Positions 30,908 through 40,334 of a stretch of DNA of 64,000 nucleotides are shown here, in pieces; positions within the stretch are counted from its first letter, which is position 1, and each line of letters opens with the position of its first letter. The translations under genes and the position numbers were made by a program. Source of the stretch: Nannochloropsis oceanica (Eukaryota; Sar; Eustigmatophyceae; Eustigmatales; Monodopsidaceae); assembly GCA_004519485.1 (NCBI GenBank), contig CP038122.1, forward strand, positions 544,086-608,085, written 5' to 3'. Under the pieces are notes generated by a model, which did not search any database, was not told where the DNA came from, and saw nothing but the letters and a program-made list of their open reading frames with translations.

Positions 30908-33781
30908 CTAAGGCACCACCAAAGATGCCGCACGTTGTCCCCCTTCCCTTTCTTCCCATCGCACTTTACTCTCAATCTCCCCTTCAAACATTCCCACGGG
31001 CGTAGGTACCATTAATCGCCATCCTTCCCTCCCTTCCCTCCCTTCCTCCTTCCTCCCTCGTCCTCCTTCACGTCCTCCTCCACTTTCTTTCAGGGAAGAA
31101 GAGGACGGGCTGGTAAAAAAGCTTCTATCCACGTACTCCATCTCCACCCCCATCCACAACCCGACCATTAAGCACAAGAACGAAATCAGCACGACAAACA
31201 CCCTCCTCCCCATCCCTCCCTCCCTCCCTCCTCCTCTCATCCTCTTCACAAAAACGCCCCTCTTCACCCTCCCTCCCTGCTTTCCCTCCTCCGAACGAGG
31301 GAGAGAGAGTAAGAGAGTGTACAAGGCCGCAGCTACAGAAGGGTCGTCCAGGTCCAGCCCCAGAGAAGTAGCAGCCGCGACGCGGAGGGCGGGAGGGAAG
31401 ACGAGGTGTTGCGAGGAGGAGGGGATGGAGGAAATGGAGGAGAAGCAAGGGAGGGGGGGATCAGGGGAAGCTTGAACAAGGCTGTTAGTACTGCTGGCCC
31501 TACTCGAGGAGCGAGAGGATGTCAACAACTGCTGCTCGTGGTGGTCGTGATGCTTCTTGTGTTCATTCCCTTCCTCCCTCCCTTCTTCCCGCTGCTGGTG
31601 CTGCTGGTGCTGGCGGTGCTGCTGCTGTCGAAGAAACGTACACACCCCTGTACTTGCTTCTCCTCTTCCTCGTGCTGATTGTGACGCTAACAAACGTGCT
31701 CTCGACGCAGAGGAGGAACGGGTGGATGAAAAGGAGGAGGAGGAGGAGGAGGAGGAGGAGGAGGAGGAGGAGGAGGAGGAGGAGGAGGAAAGCACTCTAT
31801 GCCCTGTGGCTCTCTTCTTCCCCAAAGGCGAGGACGAGGGAGGGAGGGAGGAACCGGTGACTTGCGCATACCCCTCCAGCCATGCTCCGCTCTCCGCAGC
31901 AGCCGCTCGCATCTCCCTTGCCTCTCCTACCCTTCCCTGGGCCTCGCTCTCCCTCGCCACCCATTCCAATCGTCTCCTCTGCCCTGCAACACTCGTGGGG
32001 TGCAAGGCCACGAGGAAGGGTGGGAGGGGGGGACGTGTGGAGGGTGCCCCTTCCCGTCTTTCCCGCCCTCGGCCCGAAGCCCTCCTCTCACGCGCCACCT
32101 CTCCCGCCATAGGCAAGAGTTGAGAGGAAGTCGGGGAAGAAGGGAGGGAGGGAGTCTCTACCTGTGGCTGCTGCTCCGTCACGAGAGTGAATGCTTGGGC
32201 TGCAGCCAGGGAGGAAGGGGCGGAGGAAGGGAGGGAAGGCCGGTGGGAAGGATCAGGGTCTGTCGGCTCCTCCTCTTTGGTTTCCTCCCCCTCCCACTGC
32301 TGCTGCTTCTGCTGCTCCTCCTCATCTTCCTTTTCTTCCTGGTTCTCTTCTCCACTTGCTTTGTTCACCGTCTCCTTCTTCTTCCCCTCCAAGCTACCTG
32401 ACAACCCTCCCTCCTTCCCTCCCTCCCTCCCTCCATACCCTCTGGCCACGGCAAGCAACCGCAACCATGTCTGTCCCTTCCACTTGCCTCGCCCTCCCTC
32501 CTTCATTTCCTCCTTCCCGCCCTCCTCCTTTATGAGCTTTTTCACTCTAAAGTACTCACTGCGGACTTGACGATTGTTTGGATCTTCCCGTAAAGCCTCT
32601 TTGAGGTCTTTCACGGCAAGGGAGAAGAGGAGGGAGGGCTGCTGCTCATGCTGCTGACGCTGCTGGGGCGACTGCTGCTGAAAAACTTGTCGGGGAAGCG
32701 AAGGAGGAGGGGAGAGAGGGGCAGGAGAAGCTGGCTTCGATCTCCTGGTCTGTTCTTCAACTTCCTTTTTGTCTACACCCTTGAAGCGTACGCTTCCTTC
32801 ATGCTGCTGCTGCTGCTTTAGGTGTTGTTCTTGTCGCTTGTCAAGCATTCTCTCACCCTCCGCGGCTCTGGCTTTGCCGCGCCAGTAGAGGAGGCGGGCC
32901 CGATCTGCAGGTAAGAAGAGAGGCTTAGAGGACGAGGTGGGAGATCGGGCGTTAGAGGCGTTTATCGGTGCTTCCTCCCTCCCCCCCTCCCTCCCTCCCT
33001 CCTGGAGGAGCATGGCATCTTGGCTCGCAGCGATCACGGACTTGTAATCACCCAGATGGAAGTAACAGATGGCCAGGTGCGAGTAGCATGAGAGTGCAAG
33101 TGCCTTGGCTGCTGTAGAAGAACTGGGAGTACATAGGGGGAAGGAGGAGATGGAGGAAGAGGAGGAGGAGATGGGGGTGGAGGAAGAGGAGGAGGAGGAG
33201 GATGAGGATAAGGAGGAGAGGAGGGGTTGATAGTCCTCGTAAAGAGGAGAGGTAGAAGTTACTCCAAGTGATCCAGCGGCAGCGACAGGAGCGGCTGCGT
33301 TCCACTCCTCACATCCATTTCTATCTCCAGCGATAGTTGACGAAGGGTACGGACGGAGGTAGCGAAGGACTCCCAAGGCGCTTTCCAGCTCGATTACGGC
33401 ACGTGCGTAATCCGCATCAGCAGTCAAATGCGACAGAGCCCGGTCGCGAAAGGTCCTCCCGGCCTCCACCCGCTGCTCTGGCAAGGGCAGACCCCGCGCG
33501 GACAGCACATTTGCGGACGGATGCAGGGAAGCTTGGAGAAAGCGGGAGAGGGTGGGGAGCTGGGCAGCCGTGTAGGCGGAGGGGGAGAGAGGGTTGGTGA
33601 TGCTGTCGCAACTGCTGCTGCTCTGTGAGGCAGAAGTGGCCGTTGTCACTTTCTTCTCATGCTCTGAGGCCTGATATTGGTCGTTTGTCATACGAAGCAT
33701 CGTTTCCAGTGTCCTGTGCGGGGGTATCGGTGGCGGGTTTGTGGAAGGTAATGAGTTGGGAAGAAGCAAGTGGAAGCCCAT
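30908..33781 (-). CDS. TPR protein with one membrane span, FKBP8-like layout
   Basis: Apparently a single-exon gene of 957 codons starting with ATG at 33781. The N-terminal third contains a first TPR-like helix pair (ARAVIELESALGVLRYLRPY), a poly-Ser loop, then AKALALSCYSHLAICYFHLG and DYKSVIAASQDAMLLQ, typical of TPR helices A and B. A last TPR-like unit (AVKDLKEALREDPNNRQVRS) resembles the third repeat of large immunophilins. The middle is low complexity (Glu, Gln, Ser runs). Near the C-terminus is one clear membrane segment (VFVVLISFLCLMVGLWMGVE) followed by about 70 basic/Gly-rich residues. No FKBP catalytic domain is present. Possibly a membrane-anchored co-chaperone adaptor; this is inferred from layout only. 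An [10 protein letters not shown] stretch shows the GGGA repeat inside coding sequence. Confidence 0.7.
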   Translation of the reverse strand: MGFHLLLPNSLPSTNPPPIPPHRTLETMLRMTNDQYQASEHEKKVTTATSASQSSSSCDSITNPLSPSAYTAAQLPTLSRFLQASLHPSANVLSARGLPLPEQRVEAGRTFRDRALSHLTADADYARAVIELESALGVLRYLRPYPSSTIAGDRNGCEEWNAAAPVAAAGSLGVTSTSPLYEDYQPLLSSLSSSSSSSSSSTPISSSSSSISSFPLCTPSSSTAAKALALSCYSHLAICYFHLGDYKSVIAASQDAMLLQEGGREGGREEAPINASNARSPTSSSKPLFLPADRARLLYWRGKARAAEGERMLDKRQEQHLKQQQQHEGSVRFKGVDKKEVEEQTRRSKPASPAPLSPPPSLPRQVFQQQSPQQRQQHEQQPSLLFSLAVKDLKEALREDPNNRQVRSEYFRVKKLIKEEGGKEEMKEGGRGKWKGQTWLRLLAVARGYGGREGGKEGGLSGSLEGKKKETVNKASGEENQEEKEDEEEQQKQQQWEGEETKEEEPTDPDPSHRPSLPSSAPSSLAAAQAFTLVTEQQPQVETPSLPSSPTSSQLLPMAGEVARERRASGRGRERREGAPSTRPPLPPFLVALHPTSVAGQRRRLEWVARESEAQGRVGEAREMRAAAAESGAWLEGYAQVTGSSLPPSSSPLGKKRATGHRVLSSSSSSSSSSSSSSSSSSSFSSTRSSSASRARLLASQSARGRGEASTGVCTFLRQQQHRQHQQHQQREEGREEGNEHKKHHDHHEQQLLTSSRSSSRASSTNSLVQASPDPPLPCFSSISSIPSSSQHLVFPPALRVAAATSLGLDLDDPSVAAALYTLLLSLPRSEEGKQGGRVKRGVFVKRMRGGGREGGMGRRVFVVLISFLCLMVGLWMGVEMEYVDRSFFTSPSSSSLKESGGGREGGRGRKEEGREGREGWRLMVPTPVGMFEGEIESKVRWEEREGGQRAASLVVP

Positions 33782-33982
33782 TTTTGAGTTGAAACGACCA
33801 ACTCTGTTGCAGGAGAGGGGAGGTTTTTAACGAGAGGATTGGAGTGAGTGAGTGAGACTGAGGAGATCCAGCATTTTAATGTTGAATGTGCACAATACGT
33901 CAGAACAGAAGACTTCATTGGAAAGCCTTAGGCAAAAGAGACGAAGAATCAGGGCGCGACGAGTTCTTGGCCTGGCGCATGG
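33782..33982. promoter_or_regulatory. Short divergent promoter between TPR (-) and calpain (+) genes
   Basis: The two start codons are only about 200 bases apart (300 if the calpain starts at its second Met, 34085), so both 5' leaders and a bidirectional promoter must fit here. A GAGTGAGTGAGTGAGA repeat lies at about 33842-33857. No TATA box is obvious. Confidence 0.5.
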
Positions 33983-36900
33983 ATGACGCACAATCAGACA
34001 GTGATGCCTTCTTTCCCTGTTGTACAATGTTTCCACACCAAACTCATACACCACGCACGTCCCGCATGTCCACTACGACAGGAAATGGTGCTGCCGATAC
34101 GGCCATCGCACGTGGACGAGGCTGTCTGGTCATCGTTACCTGTTGAGATCCGATTGGAGTTGGCCACTGCGTCTACAGGAGGCGGGGGCGGAGCCGGAGG
34201 CGGTGGGAGAGCAGGAGGAAAAATGGCCAGCAAGAATGACTTGATTGATTTGGTGGACGATGAGGAGGAGGAAGAGGAGGGGGAGCATATGCCGCCACAA
34301 GGGCAGCAGCACGAGCAACTGGAGGCGCAGGGAAAGGAGAGCAGCAATAGCAAGCGACCGCGATCGCAGCCTCCTCCACCATCACAACCCTCCACGGCAG
34401 CTGTAGCACCAGCAGGAGCAGCAAGAGCAGCTGTACCATCAGCACCACCATCGATAGCACCACCAAGAACGGAAAAGAAATGCACGGCTAGGGATGACGA
34501 TGAGATCATCATCCTTTCATCTAAAGTGACAGCCGCAAGAAGGTCGAGAGAGGAAGCGGATGAGGAAGATGACGTCCGCATCCTCCCTTTAACCCCGGGT
34601 CTTTCTCTCCCTCCTTCCACCACGTATGCGTCAGCCGCTGCTTGTGTAAGATATAATAGCTGGAGTGGCAGTGGGGGCGGGCAGCCTGTGACGAAGAAGC
34701 TGAAGAAGAAGTTACGGCAAGGGGCCGTGTATGTCTACCTAGGAGGAGAAGGCGAAGGAGGAGGTGAAAAGGAAGGATGGGGAAGAGGAGGAGGAGGAGG
34801 AGGAGGAGAAGGAGGAGGAGGAAGGGAAAGAGATGGAAGCGATGGAAGGTGTGGGAAAGTGGGAGGGTGGAAGGTGAGTATGACGCAAGAGGAAGAGGCG
34901 GAGGAATCGCTGCAGGAGTGGGCACGCGTGGTAAGAAGGAAGGAAGGGAGTAAGGGAGGAAGGGAGTAAGGGAGGGAGGGGTAGAAGAAGGTTGGAGACG
35001 AGGACTACCCGTCTAAATATTTTGCATCCCTCTCTCTCGTTCCCCCTCTTTTCCTAGGTTGATTGGCAAGAGGGGCGCACCGGAGCTGTCTACACCGACG
35101 ATGATTTCCCCGCGGACCTGAGTTGCATTACGGGTAATCCGAAGGACAAGGGCAAGAGAGGCGGCAAACTCCCGGATGGAGGGCAGCAGCAGCATGAGGA
35201 GGGGGTGGAAGGGGAAGAAGGTAGGGAGGAGAGGTAGGGGAGGTGGTTGGGCCTTGCTTTTTTCAGTGCATGACGCGGTACTTGCCTTCGGCATCCCTCC
35301 TTCCCGCTCTCCCTCCCTCCCTCCCTCCCTCCCTCCCTCAGCCCCTCTCCCCAAGTGCCGTTGCCCCGATCAGAAAGATGCAAAGCTTCTGAAGGTCCTT
35401 AAGGTATGCTCCCCATCCCTCCTTCCCTCCCTCTCTCCATCCATTCATCGTTCCCTTCCTCCCTCCCTCCCTCCCTCTACAGGACGGACCAAACCAAGGG
35501 CGTATGTTCTACGGCTGTGCCGTGGGAGCGAAAGATAAGGTACCTTCCTCCCTCCCTCCCTCCCTTCCTTCCTTCCTTCCTCTCTCTCACCCTCCTTTCT
35601 CTCCAGTGACCCACGCGCCCCTCCCTCCCTCCCTCCCTCCCTCCCTCCCTCCCTCCCTCCCTCCCTCCCTCCCTCCCTCCCTCCCTCCCTCCCTCCCCCC
35701 CAAGCGCGGCTGTGGCTTCTTCCAATGGGCGGGCGACACACCCACGCGCTGGAAAGAGGGTCCTATTGAGTTTATGCGCTTTGCGGTGGATGGGGAGTGG
35801 GCCGTCGTTAATAACAAGGGTTTCCGCTCGGAGGATGTGGTGCGTACTACGTCCTCCTCCCTCACTCCTTCCCTCCCTCCCTCCCCTCCTCCTGTCCCCT
35901 TCCATCCCCTTTCCACACGTCTCCTTCCCTCCCTCCCTCCCTCCCTCCCTCCGTCTAGAAACAAGGGGGGCTGGGCTCGTGCTGGTTTCTCTCGGCTCTG
36001 GCAGTGGTGGCGGAACGACACGACCTGATAGGTATGCCACGGAGGGAGGGAGGGGGGGAGGGGGGGAAGGTAGGAGGAAGGGAAGACAGTGACGCGGGTT
36101 TTCTGGTCGATGAAGATGCAGCCTTTTTACATGTTTATCACCTCTCCCCTCTCCCGCCCGCCCGCCCTCCCTCCCTCCCTCTCACCCACCCTCTCTCAGC
36201 CCGCAATATGATCACTCGCGCTGGCCCTGCGGCTGGAGGAATGTTCGGAGTCCGTCTCTTCATCGATGGCCGCTGGAAGGTACCTATGCCCCCTCCCTCC
36301 CTCCCTCCCTCCCTCTCCACTTCCCTTTCTCCCTCTTCTCGGGGAAAAATCCATAAATCCCACCCACCCCCCTCCCTCCCCCCTTCCCAGGTCTACCCTA
36401 TCGACGGCTACCTCCCCCTCCGCCCCCCCCCCCCGCTCTCATCGATCCGACGCCGCCGACCACCTCCTCCTTCACGCCTCGGGACGGGTCATGGAGCTTA
36501 AGTACTGCAAAGGTACCCTCCCTCCCTGCCTCCCTTCCTCCCTCCCTCTCTCCCTCTCTCCCTTCCTCAGTGTTTGCCGCCCCTACCCATCCACAGGACG
36601 CAACCGGCAGCTGTGGCCCTCCCTCCTCGAAAAAGCTTATTCCAAGGTATTCCCCTCCCTCCCTCCCTCCCTCCCTCCCTCCCTTCCTCCCTCCTCCCTT
36701 CAGCACCACCCCATCCATCTGTCGTGATAGGACTTCATTCTTGCACCTCCCTCCCTCCCTCCCTCCCTCCCTCCCTCCCTCCCTCCCTCACCAGGCCCAC
36801 GGCTCCTACAGGGCTATCTCAGGCGGACATATCGCAGAGGGTATGTTCGATCTCACTTCTTTTCCTTGCGGTAAGCAGGGAGGGAGGGAGGGAAGGAGGG

Positions 36901-39900
36901 GGGGAGGAAGGGAGGGAAGGAGGGAAGAAGGTATCGACACGTGGAAAGGACGATCACTCACACCACCCTCCTTCCCTCCCTCTCTCCCTCCCTCCCTCCC
37001 CCCCTCCCTCTTCAGAGATGATCCAATTCGGCGCCGGAACATTTGACAGCGAGCAATTCTGGGCCCGCCTCTGCTCCTTTCAGGTAGGTAGGGAGGGAGG
37101 GAGGGAGGGAGGGAGGTTGACTTTGTGTGGGTCCATCCCAGCCCTGCCCTTCCCTCCCTCCCTCCCTCCCTCCCTCCCTCCCTCCCTCCCTCCCTCCCTC
37201 CCTCCCCCTTCGTTCAGAGCTCGGGGTTCACCATGGGCGCCTCATGCGGACAGTCGCATGAGGGGCTGGTCGGTAATCATGCCTATAGCGTTTTGTGTGT
37301 CAAGGTAGGGGGAGAGGGAGGGAGAGAGGGAGGGAGAAAGGAAGGAGGGAGGGAAGGAAAAAGGGAGAGAGGGAAGGAGGGTGGGAAGGAGGATACCATC
37401 GCAGGGCTACTCGTCCACATGCATTATTCATACTCGCTTCCTGTTCTTATTCATACTCGCTTCCTGCCCCCCTCCCTCCCTCCCTCCCTCCCTCAGGAGC
37501 TACAGGACGTTCCCGTGGGACAGCAGAAGAAGATCAGTGACTTCTTCTCCCAGCGGTCGCAGATAGCGTCATTGGAAGGAGGAGGAGGAGGAGGAGGAGG
37601 AGGAGGAGGAGGAGGTGAGTTCCTTTTAGGGTTTCACTTATTGGCTTGTCTTACTCCCCTTGAAGCATTCTTGCCGGGCTCTCATGCCTTCCCTCCCTCC
37701 CTCCCTCCCTCCCTCCCTCCCTCCCTCCCTCCCTCCCTCCCTTCCTCCCTCCCTCCCTTCTCCAGCCACTGCCTCTCCGACGAGGTCCCTCCCCCCCTAC
37801 CTCACCCCAGACGGCGTGCTCCGTCTGATCCGTCTCCGAAACCCGTGGGGCTGCCAAGAATGGAAAGGGAGGTGGGGAAGGAGGGAAGGAGGGAGGGAGG
37901 AAGGGAGGAAGAGGGAGTCAGGAAGGGATCAAATTAGATATGAAAATATTTAATCTAAGAGACGTGACGGCTCACTTACAGCGGGCCTCCCTCCCTCCCT
38001 CCCTCCCTCCCTCCCTCCCTCCCTCCCTCCCTCCCTCCCTAGCTTCGGCCCTGGGTCAGATGAATGGACTCCGGCTCTGCGGGAGGCCCTGGAGGGGAAG
38101 CACTCCAAGAGCAGCAAGGGCGACGGGTGCTTCTGGATGGTATGTACCTCCCTCCCTTCCTCCCTCCCTCCCTCCTCCCCATCTTTCCTTTCGCCCTTCG
38201 CAGCGTTCCATGCAGTACACAAACCTCTTGCCTTTCTTCCTCCCTCCCTCCCTCCCTCCCTCCCTCCCTCCCTCCCTCCCTCCCTGGCAGGCGTACCACG
38301 ACTTCCTCCGCGTCTTCTCGGGCGTGGACGTGTGTAAGGCTCATCGTGGCTGGTTCGTCAACAGCCTTCAGGGCTACCTACACAGGCAGCAATGGCACCC
38401 ACAGCACGTACGCCCTCCCTCCCTTTCTCTATTTCGTTCTCTCTCTCTTCTTCCTCAGTCTGCGGAAGTTCTCATTGCCATCCTTCCTCCCTCCCTTCCT
38501 CCCTCCCTCCCTCCCTCCCTGCAGGCCGTCCACCTCCGCCTTCCCTCCCACTCATCCGTCTGGCTGCACCTCTCCCTTATCCAGCCCTCCACGCGGGGCA
38601 AGGCCGGCAGGGGCGGGTTCTGGCACTCAGACATCTCCCTCCTCGTCCTCCGCTTGGCAGAGGAGGGGGGGGAGGGAGGGAAGGAGCAGCGGTGGCGAGT
38701 CTTAGGTAGATGGCTGGGAGGGAGGGAGGAAGGAAAGGAGGGAAGTTCAATCAAGCAGCCATTTAAAAAGCAGAGGAACGTCGGCGATGAGAATGTGGGT
38801 GTACTGGTCTAACACCCCTCCCTTCCTCCCTCCCTCTCTCCCTCCCTCCCTCGCAGGCACGGAGCACGTCCGCCTGTCCGGACAGGGCAAAGTGCACCAC
38901 ACCGAGCTCGTGCTGGGGGAGGCGTCTTGTAACGAGGGAGGGAGGGAGGGAGGGAGTAAGGGAGGGAGGGGTGGCTCATTCCTGTTTCTGCATGTCGTCA
39001 GCACGTGTCTCGCTCACACATACCCCTCCCTCCCTCCCTCCCTCCCTCCCTCCCTCCGCCCCTGCCTAGCCTCCACCCCCTCCCACTACCTCCTCCTCCC
39101 CTTCTCTCTCAACCGTTGGGCCCTGCTCTCCGACCCTGCCATCCGGGGCAGCCGAGCTGCCCTCAGGAAGAAGGCACTGGAGACCGCTCCCTTCACCCTC
39201 CGAGTCTTTTCCGCAGCACCCGTGGAGTTGCGGGAGGTGAGGGATGGAGGGAGAGAAGGAGGCGAGGAGGGACAGGGGGAAAGAAAGGTAGGAGAAGACT
39301 ATGGACAATATTCCGGTCGTCTCACCCCCGTTCCCTCCTTCCCTCCCTCCCCCTCGTCCTCCATCCGTCCCCTTCAGGCTCCCTTCCCCACCCACAAACA
39401 CACACACTCGCCGAGTGCCCTTGTCGTCGATCAGCTCCTGCGCGCCCTGTCTGACAGAGCCCTCCTCCGAGACTCCAAGTTCTTTGCCCCTCCTGTGGTT
39501 ACGAGGGACGTTGGAGGGTGAGGGAGGGAAGGAGGGAGGAAGGGAGGGAGGAAGGGAAAGAGGGAGGAAGGTTGCGGCCAGGCAGACGTTTACCCTCTAG
39601 CCTAGCGCTTGCCTCCTCATGATCAGCGTTTGAGAGCCAGTGGACGGAACGCCCTAGAGAAGAAATATAGACACACAGACGACTTGGACTGAGAAACACT
39701 GGAACGATCCTTCACTCACGTCCCTCCTTCCTCCTCTCTGGACGCATCTGTGTACTCACCACAGGCTGGCTGGTGTGACCCTCTTCCAGTACGAGTGCTC
39801 TGGCGCCTCCCTCGTTGTCCTCGAGAATGGCTTGGTCGAACAAGAGCTCTACGTGCGGTGCCGTTTCGTCCTGCACACCAGCGACAGCAGCGACTGGGGG

Positions 39901-40334
39901 TCGACTCACAACCCCACGCAGGAACCTGGTAGGGAGAAAGGAAGTGAGCGAAGAAGGGAGGGAATAATGGAAGGAGATGGAACAGGAGTGACGATAAAAA
40001 TGGGGTGGTCAGCTCCGCTGCGCTCTTGTAGCAAAATATCGAGAGCCCTCCACGACCCCACCACCAACCAGTCCACTTCCATTCCCTCCCTCCTTTCCTC
40101 CCTCCCTCTCCCACATCCCCTCCCTCAGAATGGCGCGTGGTCGGTCCAGGCTTCAAGAGCATCGTGGGTGTGCTGGGGTCCTCCTCCCAAATGGCGCAAT
40201 TTGAGCTGGAGGCCATGGGAGAGGGAGGGACGATTGTGATGGATCGCGTGCAGGTGCAGGCGTTGCCACATGAAGAGATTAGACCACAAGAGCTGGATGG
40301 GGCCCGAGGGATTTTCGCTTGGAAGAAGGCATGA
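33983..40334 (+). CDS. Modular calpain with UBM, SIM-like, GRF zinc finger and PIP box
   Basis: Calpain-family cysteine protease, about 1085 residues. Exons: 33983-34930, 35058-35220, 35342-35403, 35483-35539, 35705-35839, 35959-36031, 36200-36279, 36391-36512, 36597-36646, 36795-36840, 37016-37083, 37218-37304, 37497-37614, 37766-37871, 38043-38139, 38291-38407, 38525-38705, 38857-38928, 39070-39236, 39378-39517, 39765-39928, 40129-40334; all in phase except a one-base problem in the exon 8 poly-C. Order: UBM-like VDEAVWSSLPVEIRLEL (~44-60); SIM-like DLIDLVDDEEE (~86-96) and DDDEIIILSS (~171-180); calpain anchor YTDDDFPADL; GRF finger with Cys ~376, 378, 403, 413 and GPNQGRMFYGC, CGFFQWAGD; catalytic QGGLGSCWFL (Cys ~463), VGNHAYSV (His ~622), IRLRNPWG (Asn ~695); PIP box QKKISDFF (~640-647); FWMAYHDFLRVFSGVDVC; then calpain C2-like domain(s). 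No EF-hands. Start could be Met35 (34085). Confidence 0.9.
36423..36434 (+). other. Poly-C run causing a reading-frame break in calpain exon 8
   Basis: Twelve Cs follow the codons for YLPLR. As written, the frame runs into a stop at the end of exon 8. One C fewer restores a frame reading ASGRVMELKYCK, which joins in phase to exon 9 (RNRQLWPSLLEKAYSK). The family has LLEKAY here, so the downstream frame is certainly coding. Confidence 0.85.
37424..37466 (+). repeat. 20-bp direct duplication in calpain intron 12
   Basis: The block beginning TTATTCATACTCGCTTCCTG occurs at 37424-37443 and again at 37447-37466, three bases apart, inside an intron. Confidence 0.85.

Follow-up and report, generated by a model that had tools for sequence, protein, structure and literature searches.

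A gene on the forward strand of Nannochloropsis oceanica contig CP038122.1 (GenBank assembly GCA_004519485.1) was found to encode a calpain in which a GRF zinc finger ahead of the protease core is combined with a candidate ubiquitin-binding motif (UBM), three patches resembling SUMO-interacting motifs (SIMs) and a stretch conforming to the PCNA-interacting protein (PIP) box. The gene lies at 33983..40334 of the window, i.e., the whole 64,000-nucleotide stretch that was analysed (contig positions 544,086 to 608,085); all features described below are on its forward strand unless stated otherwise. We favour the reading, with a probability of roughly 0.5, that the product is a calpain of the GRF class guided by ubiquitin, SUMO and PCNA, tethered to DNA and acting at replication forks. 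That DNA-protein crosslinks are its substrate is a part of this reading to which we give less credence than to the whole.

The gene model comprises 22 exons joined over 21 introns, all of which (21/21) have GT-AG borders. Translation from the start at 33983 to the stop at 40334 yielded a joined protein of 1,085 residues, including three filler residues at the one place where the frame had to be bridged. In a Pfam search of this protein, Peptidase_C2 was matched above its cut-off with an E value of 8.5e-48, and the core matched calpain 1 (3.1e-22) and other calpains in the Protein Data Bank (PDB). The intact catalytic triad given in a preliminary description, which had been made from the DNA letters alone, was confirmed with the same numbering: Cys463 (codon at 35980..35982) and Asn695 (37840..37842) were aligned with calpain 1, and His622 (37278..37280) occupies the triad position between them. 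The alignment with calpain 1 also revealed LGSCW in place of LGDCW, the Asp of which is a calcium ligand in calpains. At E values of up to 1, the joined protein contained no Pfam domain beyond Peptidase_C2 and Zn_ribbon_GRF, and no SprT-like or WLM metalloprotease domain; judged by its sequence, the enzyme is a calpain and a member of neither of the metalloprotease families represented by SPRTN and Wss1. Behind the core, the C-terminal region (38525..40334) is positioned like the small optic lobes (SOL)-homology domain of CAPN15, which we presume it to resemble; its 309 residues had no Pfam match at E values of up to 10.

Another calpain was found in the genome (G000:C3:622398-623387), the core of which is contained in a single long open frame with motifs that by eye are CAPN7/PalB-like. 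Using landmarks chosen by eye, the His-Asn spacing was 73 residues in the calpain of the window versus 21 in this second calpain, with the PIP box lying within the extra loop, and the distance from a matching landmark to the Trp before the core was 93 versus 18 residues, with the GRF finger occupying the gap.

The GRF finger had been described as complete with four cysteines, and this was borne out. Zn_ribbon_GRF was matched above its cut-off (3.8e-12, residues 378-419) N-terminal of Cys463, within an element of approximately residues 375-420 that is encoded by exons 3-5 (35342..35734) and contains Cys376, Cys378, Cys403 and Cys413. Against the PDB, the finger matched the GRF of NEIL3 (5.4e-15), APE2 (9.8e-4) and ZCCHC4 (0.005). 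A search of the genome (29.3 Mb in 32 contigs) revealed at least three other GRF genes, by their look a TOP3, a RecQ-type helicase and an APE2-like nuclease; this count is a lower bound because the search missed the finger of the window itself, which is split over three exons. In the TOP3 gene, the GRF was above its cut-off and was accompanied by the end of Topoisom_bac at 9.2e-7, below the cut-off in a truncated piece, while the gene read as an APE2-like nuclease contained Exo_endo_phos above its cut-off and a GRF that was above in one search and just under in another. The calpain finger was identical to that of TOP3 at 29/49 positions, to that of the helicase at 21/48 and to that of the nuclease at 14/46; by these values it is closest to the TOP3 finger, and its GRF kin in this genome are apparently proteins of DNA repair and topology. 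The helicase gene (G000:C16:309034-309168 and the frame around it) combines GRF, SAP and DEAD domains in one frame, all above their cut-offs, and is RecQ-like by eye; to our knowledge, this is not a standard combination.

Near the N-terminus, residues 44-60 (34112..34162) form the UBM-like motif. When 177,635 distinct PDB sequences were searched with phmmer and E values of up to 10 were admitted, REV1 was the single match of this stretch, with a whole-chain E value of 0.048. The REV1 UBM contacts ubiquitin through D1016, V1019, F1020, L1023, P1024, L1027, E1030 and L1031 (PMC8468184), and these positions are occupied here, at equal spacing, by D45, V48, W49, L52, P53, I56, E59 and L60, with W replacing F at one position and I replacing L at another. 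REV1 itself is a polymerase and not a protease. A tight UBM pattern occurred in 0/20,000 shuffles of the protein in each of two modes; because the UBM, PIP and SIM patterns were all defined after the sequence had been seen, this and the following shuffle figures somewhat flatter the case. The motif evaluation covers one sequence, the copy of this alga. Genome-wide, the Pfam UBM model (PF14377) gave four matches at E values of up to 10, three of them below the cut-off; the sole match above it, and only just so, was at G000:C7:447648-447725 (23.6 bits, E 0.00138).

Pattern scanning located the SIM-like patches, each a hydrophobic stretch with acidic residues following or flanking it, at residues 86-99 (34238..34279), 171-182 (34493..34528) and 194-205 (34562..34597). 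All three (at residues 87, 175 and 198) had at least three acidic flanking residues, and a fourth, at residue 817, was obtained by a laxer rule only. The preliminary description had noted such patches correctly and counted two of them instead of three. At least three acidic-flanked regions were found in 0.03% of 30,000 whole-protein shuffles in each mode, and in 0/30,000 shuffles of residues 1-330 alone. The PIP box, QKKISDFF, is located at residues 640-647 (37524..37547) in the loop between the catalytic His and Asn and, as had been described, fits the consensus Q-x-x-[ILM]-x-x-F-F exactly; this strict pattern was met by chance in 0.7% of 20,000 shuffles. The targeting elements are all present as sequence patterns and together exceed what shuffling produces. 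A basic cluster, KKLKKK, at residue 238 could serve as a nuclear signal.

From these domains and motifs, the partners, nuclear location, activity and substrate of the protein may be predicted. The UBM would bind ubiquitin and, together with the PIP box, would most likely contact ubiquitylated PCNA at two sites, in the manner of DNA polymerase iota; that enzyme, a polymerase and not a protease, likewise combines UBMs with a PIP box (PMC8468184). The SIM-like patches may add contacts to SUMO-marked proteins, and the GRF finger, which adjoins the protease core, would bind single-stranded DNA. Proteins trapped there, be it as DNA-protein crosslinks or as stalled replisome or repair factors, would then be cleaved by the cysteine protease. 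The closest functional analogues would be SPRTN, which combines a PIP box with a UBZ, and Wss1, which carries two SIMs (PMC9240642). Both are metalloproteases with VCP/Cdc48-binding motifs, whereas the calpain, a cysteine protease, is unrelated to them. The activation of SPRTN by ubiquitin on the crosslink (PMC12279946) illustrates, by analogy, why such gating can matter. Of the replication-coupled crosslink protease built on calpain that the preliminary description had proposed, the targeting elements are present, they exceed shuffles and the finger is topoisomerase-like; crosslinks as the substrate are shown by nothing here.

The statement that no calpain with this set had been described was too strong, since both GRF-calpains and ubiquitin-guided calpains are published. 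Zf_GRF-CysPc calpains form a clade in SAR, Hacrobia and Plantae that has been catalogued since 2012 (PMC3563603), to which a red alga, Phytophthora and Plasmodium were added (PMC13413365). The protein described here shares with them the GRF finger joined to the N-terminal side of the calpain core, which is the trait of membership. In two green algae, Ostreococcus and Micromonas, the arrangement is UBA_4-zf_GRF-calpain (PMC4631099), and a ubiquitin-binding domain is thus placed still further N-terminal, as here. The N. oceanica protein differs from the class, as far as the excerpts of these papers describe it, by a UBM instead of a UBA, by three SIM-like patches and by a PIP box placed within an extended His-Asn loop. 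CAPN15, in turn, is a ubiquitin-directed protease that requires ubiquitin binding for its function (PMC12805371); it and SOL resemble the present protein in having ubiquitin-binding elements ahead of the calpain core and a C-terminal region behind it. Unlike the UBM and GRF found here, CAPN15 has NZF fingers, and the excerpt of its paper mentions no PIP box; NZF/RanBP zinc fingers had no Pfam match in our protein, either over the whole chain at E values of up to 1 or over residues 1-129 at E values of up to 10. In the titles and excerpts of open-licence literature that were searched, no calpain with a UBM, SIM and PIP set was reported, nor were GRF-class calpains tied to replication forks or crosslinks, and an open-licence search for Nannochloropsis and calpain gave no title apparently on an algal calpain. 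What is new, as far as this literature goes, is the predicted UBM, SIM and PIP set on a GRF-calpain, and in this narrower form the claim of the full set holds.

Several observations weigh against an action at replication forks. The REV1 score sums two weak stretches, one per REV1 UBM (6.3 + 8.4 bits), neither of which is significant alone, and a loose UBM pattern arose by chance in 7.5-9.0% of shuffles. The Pfam UBM model matched neither the protein nor either of two pieces from its N-terminal part, and this gene was not among its matches in the genome search at E values of up to 10. The UBM claimed earlier has the Leu-Pro and the REV1 contact spacing and is not recognised by Pfam; of Peptidase_C2, zf-GRF and UBM, for which the preliminary description had proposed a domain search of the joined protein, the first two were returned and the third was not. 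PIP and SIM are short motifs and were picked after the fact. The PIP stretch had no match in a sequence search of PDB chains of at least 20 residues, which is weak evidence because most PIP peptides are short. One simple SHP pattern, of the kind by which SPRTN binds VCP, was absent from the protein. GRF fingers occur also in an RNA methyltransferase, ZCCHC4, which is among the PDB matches of the finger, and a Wss1-like protease gene is already present in the genome.

An alternative is a protein with no role in replication, namely a CAPN15-like, ubiquitin-directed calpain that uses its GRF finger to bind RNA or DNA; the PIP-like stretch would then have arisen by chance within a low-complexity loop, and the patches taken for SIMs would be acidic linkers. 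We consider this a real but less probable possibility. It would be in keeping with ZCCHC4 as a case of a GRF within an RNA enzyme and with the looser PIP pattern, which was obtained in 2.2-2.5% of 20,000 shuffles. CAPN15 targets E-cadherin and not DNA (PMC12805371), and cytokinesis has been argued to be the general job shared by calpains (PMC13413365). The rarity of the strict PIP pattern and of three SIM-like regions among shuffles speaks against chance motifs, however, and the finger is TOP3-like. The PIP box might instead be a degron through which CRL4-Cdt2 destroys the protease on PCNA in S phase, so that the enzyme would act outside replication. PIP degrons have Thr-Asp, e.g., in Cdt1, and a basic residue at +4; Ser-Asp at positions 5-6 and the nearby basic residues of QKKISDFF resemble this arrangement, but the +4 residue here is Ser, and a degron would have no need for the UBM and the SIMs. 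We regard this explanation as very improbable.

Exon 8 contains a run of 12 cytosines (C12, 36423..36434), upstream of which the calpain-like WKVYPIDGYLP is encoded and downstream of which the rest of the core continues in a different frame. As assembled, the frame hits a stop shortly past the run and closes in exon 8, leaving the downstream gene out of frame; this, too, counts against a functional fork protease. It could mean that the frameshift is genuine, the gene dying or misjoined and the long reading an artefact of bridging. Yet the remaining exons are open with GT-AG junctions, the core and triad are intact past the break, and no other C run in the 64-kb window is as long as C12, which makes an error in its length unsurprising. 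The break is therefore most likely due to such an error or to a polymorphism, and a dead gene is unlikely. The start, stop and residue numbers of the joined gene agree with the preliminary description, which had missed the break. The N-terminal exon as part of a separate gene was considered and found unlikely because exons 1 and 2 are joined in phase, just upstream of an FPAD stretch that we take to be part of the calpain start; the N-terminal exon is continuous with the reading frame of the core.

With regard to other crosslink proteases, the Wss1-like gene (G000:C8:859217-859928) contained WLM, UBA and PUB, each scoring above its cut-off, as well as a ubiquitin-like stretch that stayed under its own. 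With this gene in the genome, there need be no gap for the calpain to fill, and a role as substitute for all crosslink proteases is weakened. SprT-like, the SPRTN domain, gave no match in the genome at E values of up to 10 in a search that may overlook genes split into short exons; as a control, it was matched in 9/14 genomes, in seven of them above the cut-off. The same type of search caught only a 23-residue piece of the calpain core of the window and missed its three-exon GRF finger. Since introns can hide genes from it, the lack of an SPRTN match counts as a lead and not as a result. Pattern scans with two stretches of the calpain, two in each of the genome and viral contig collections without eukaryotes, returned 24, 1, 33 and 2 matches, among which tblastn recognised no relative.

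If the PIP box, UBM and SIMs work, the GRF-calpain class gains a concrete hypothesis, namely fork proteolysis by a calpain. Crosslink proteolysis has been reviewed for SPRTN, Wss1, FAM111A, Ddi1 and the proteasome (PMC9240642), and a cysteine-protease solution would join them if the hypothesis is true. It is conceivable, though we hold it to be doubtful, that GRF-class calpains across algae, other SAR and plant-side lineages are an overlooked cysteine-protease type of replication-coupled protease beside these systems, and that the copy of this alga, with ubiquitylated PCNA, SUMO and single-stranded DNA as its targets, stands in for SPRTN in a genome without a detected SPRTN.

The introns of the calpain gene (window 34931-40128) have features of their own: 19/21 contain CCCTCCCT, pyrimidine runs reach 84 bases, and a GGGAGGGA or GGAGGGAG stretch is present in 11/21, with which some introns could self-fold. 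Upstream of the gene, on the reverse strand at window positions 30911-33826, an open frame of 972 residues revealed long low-complexity stretches and a weak TPR match below the cut-off (E 0.0014).
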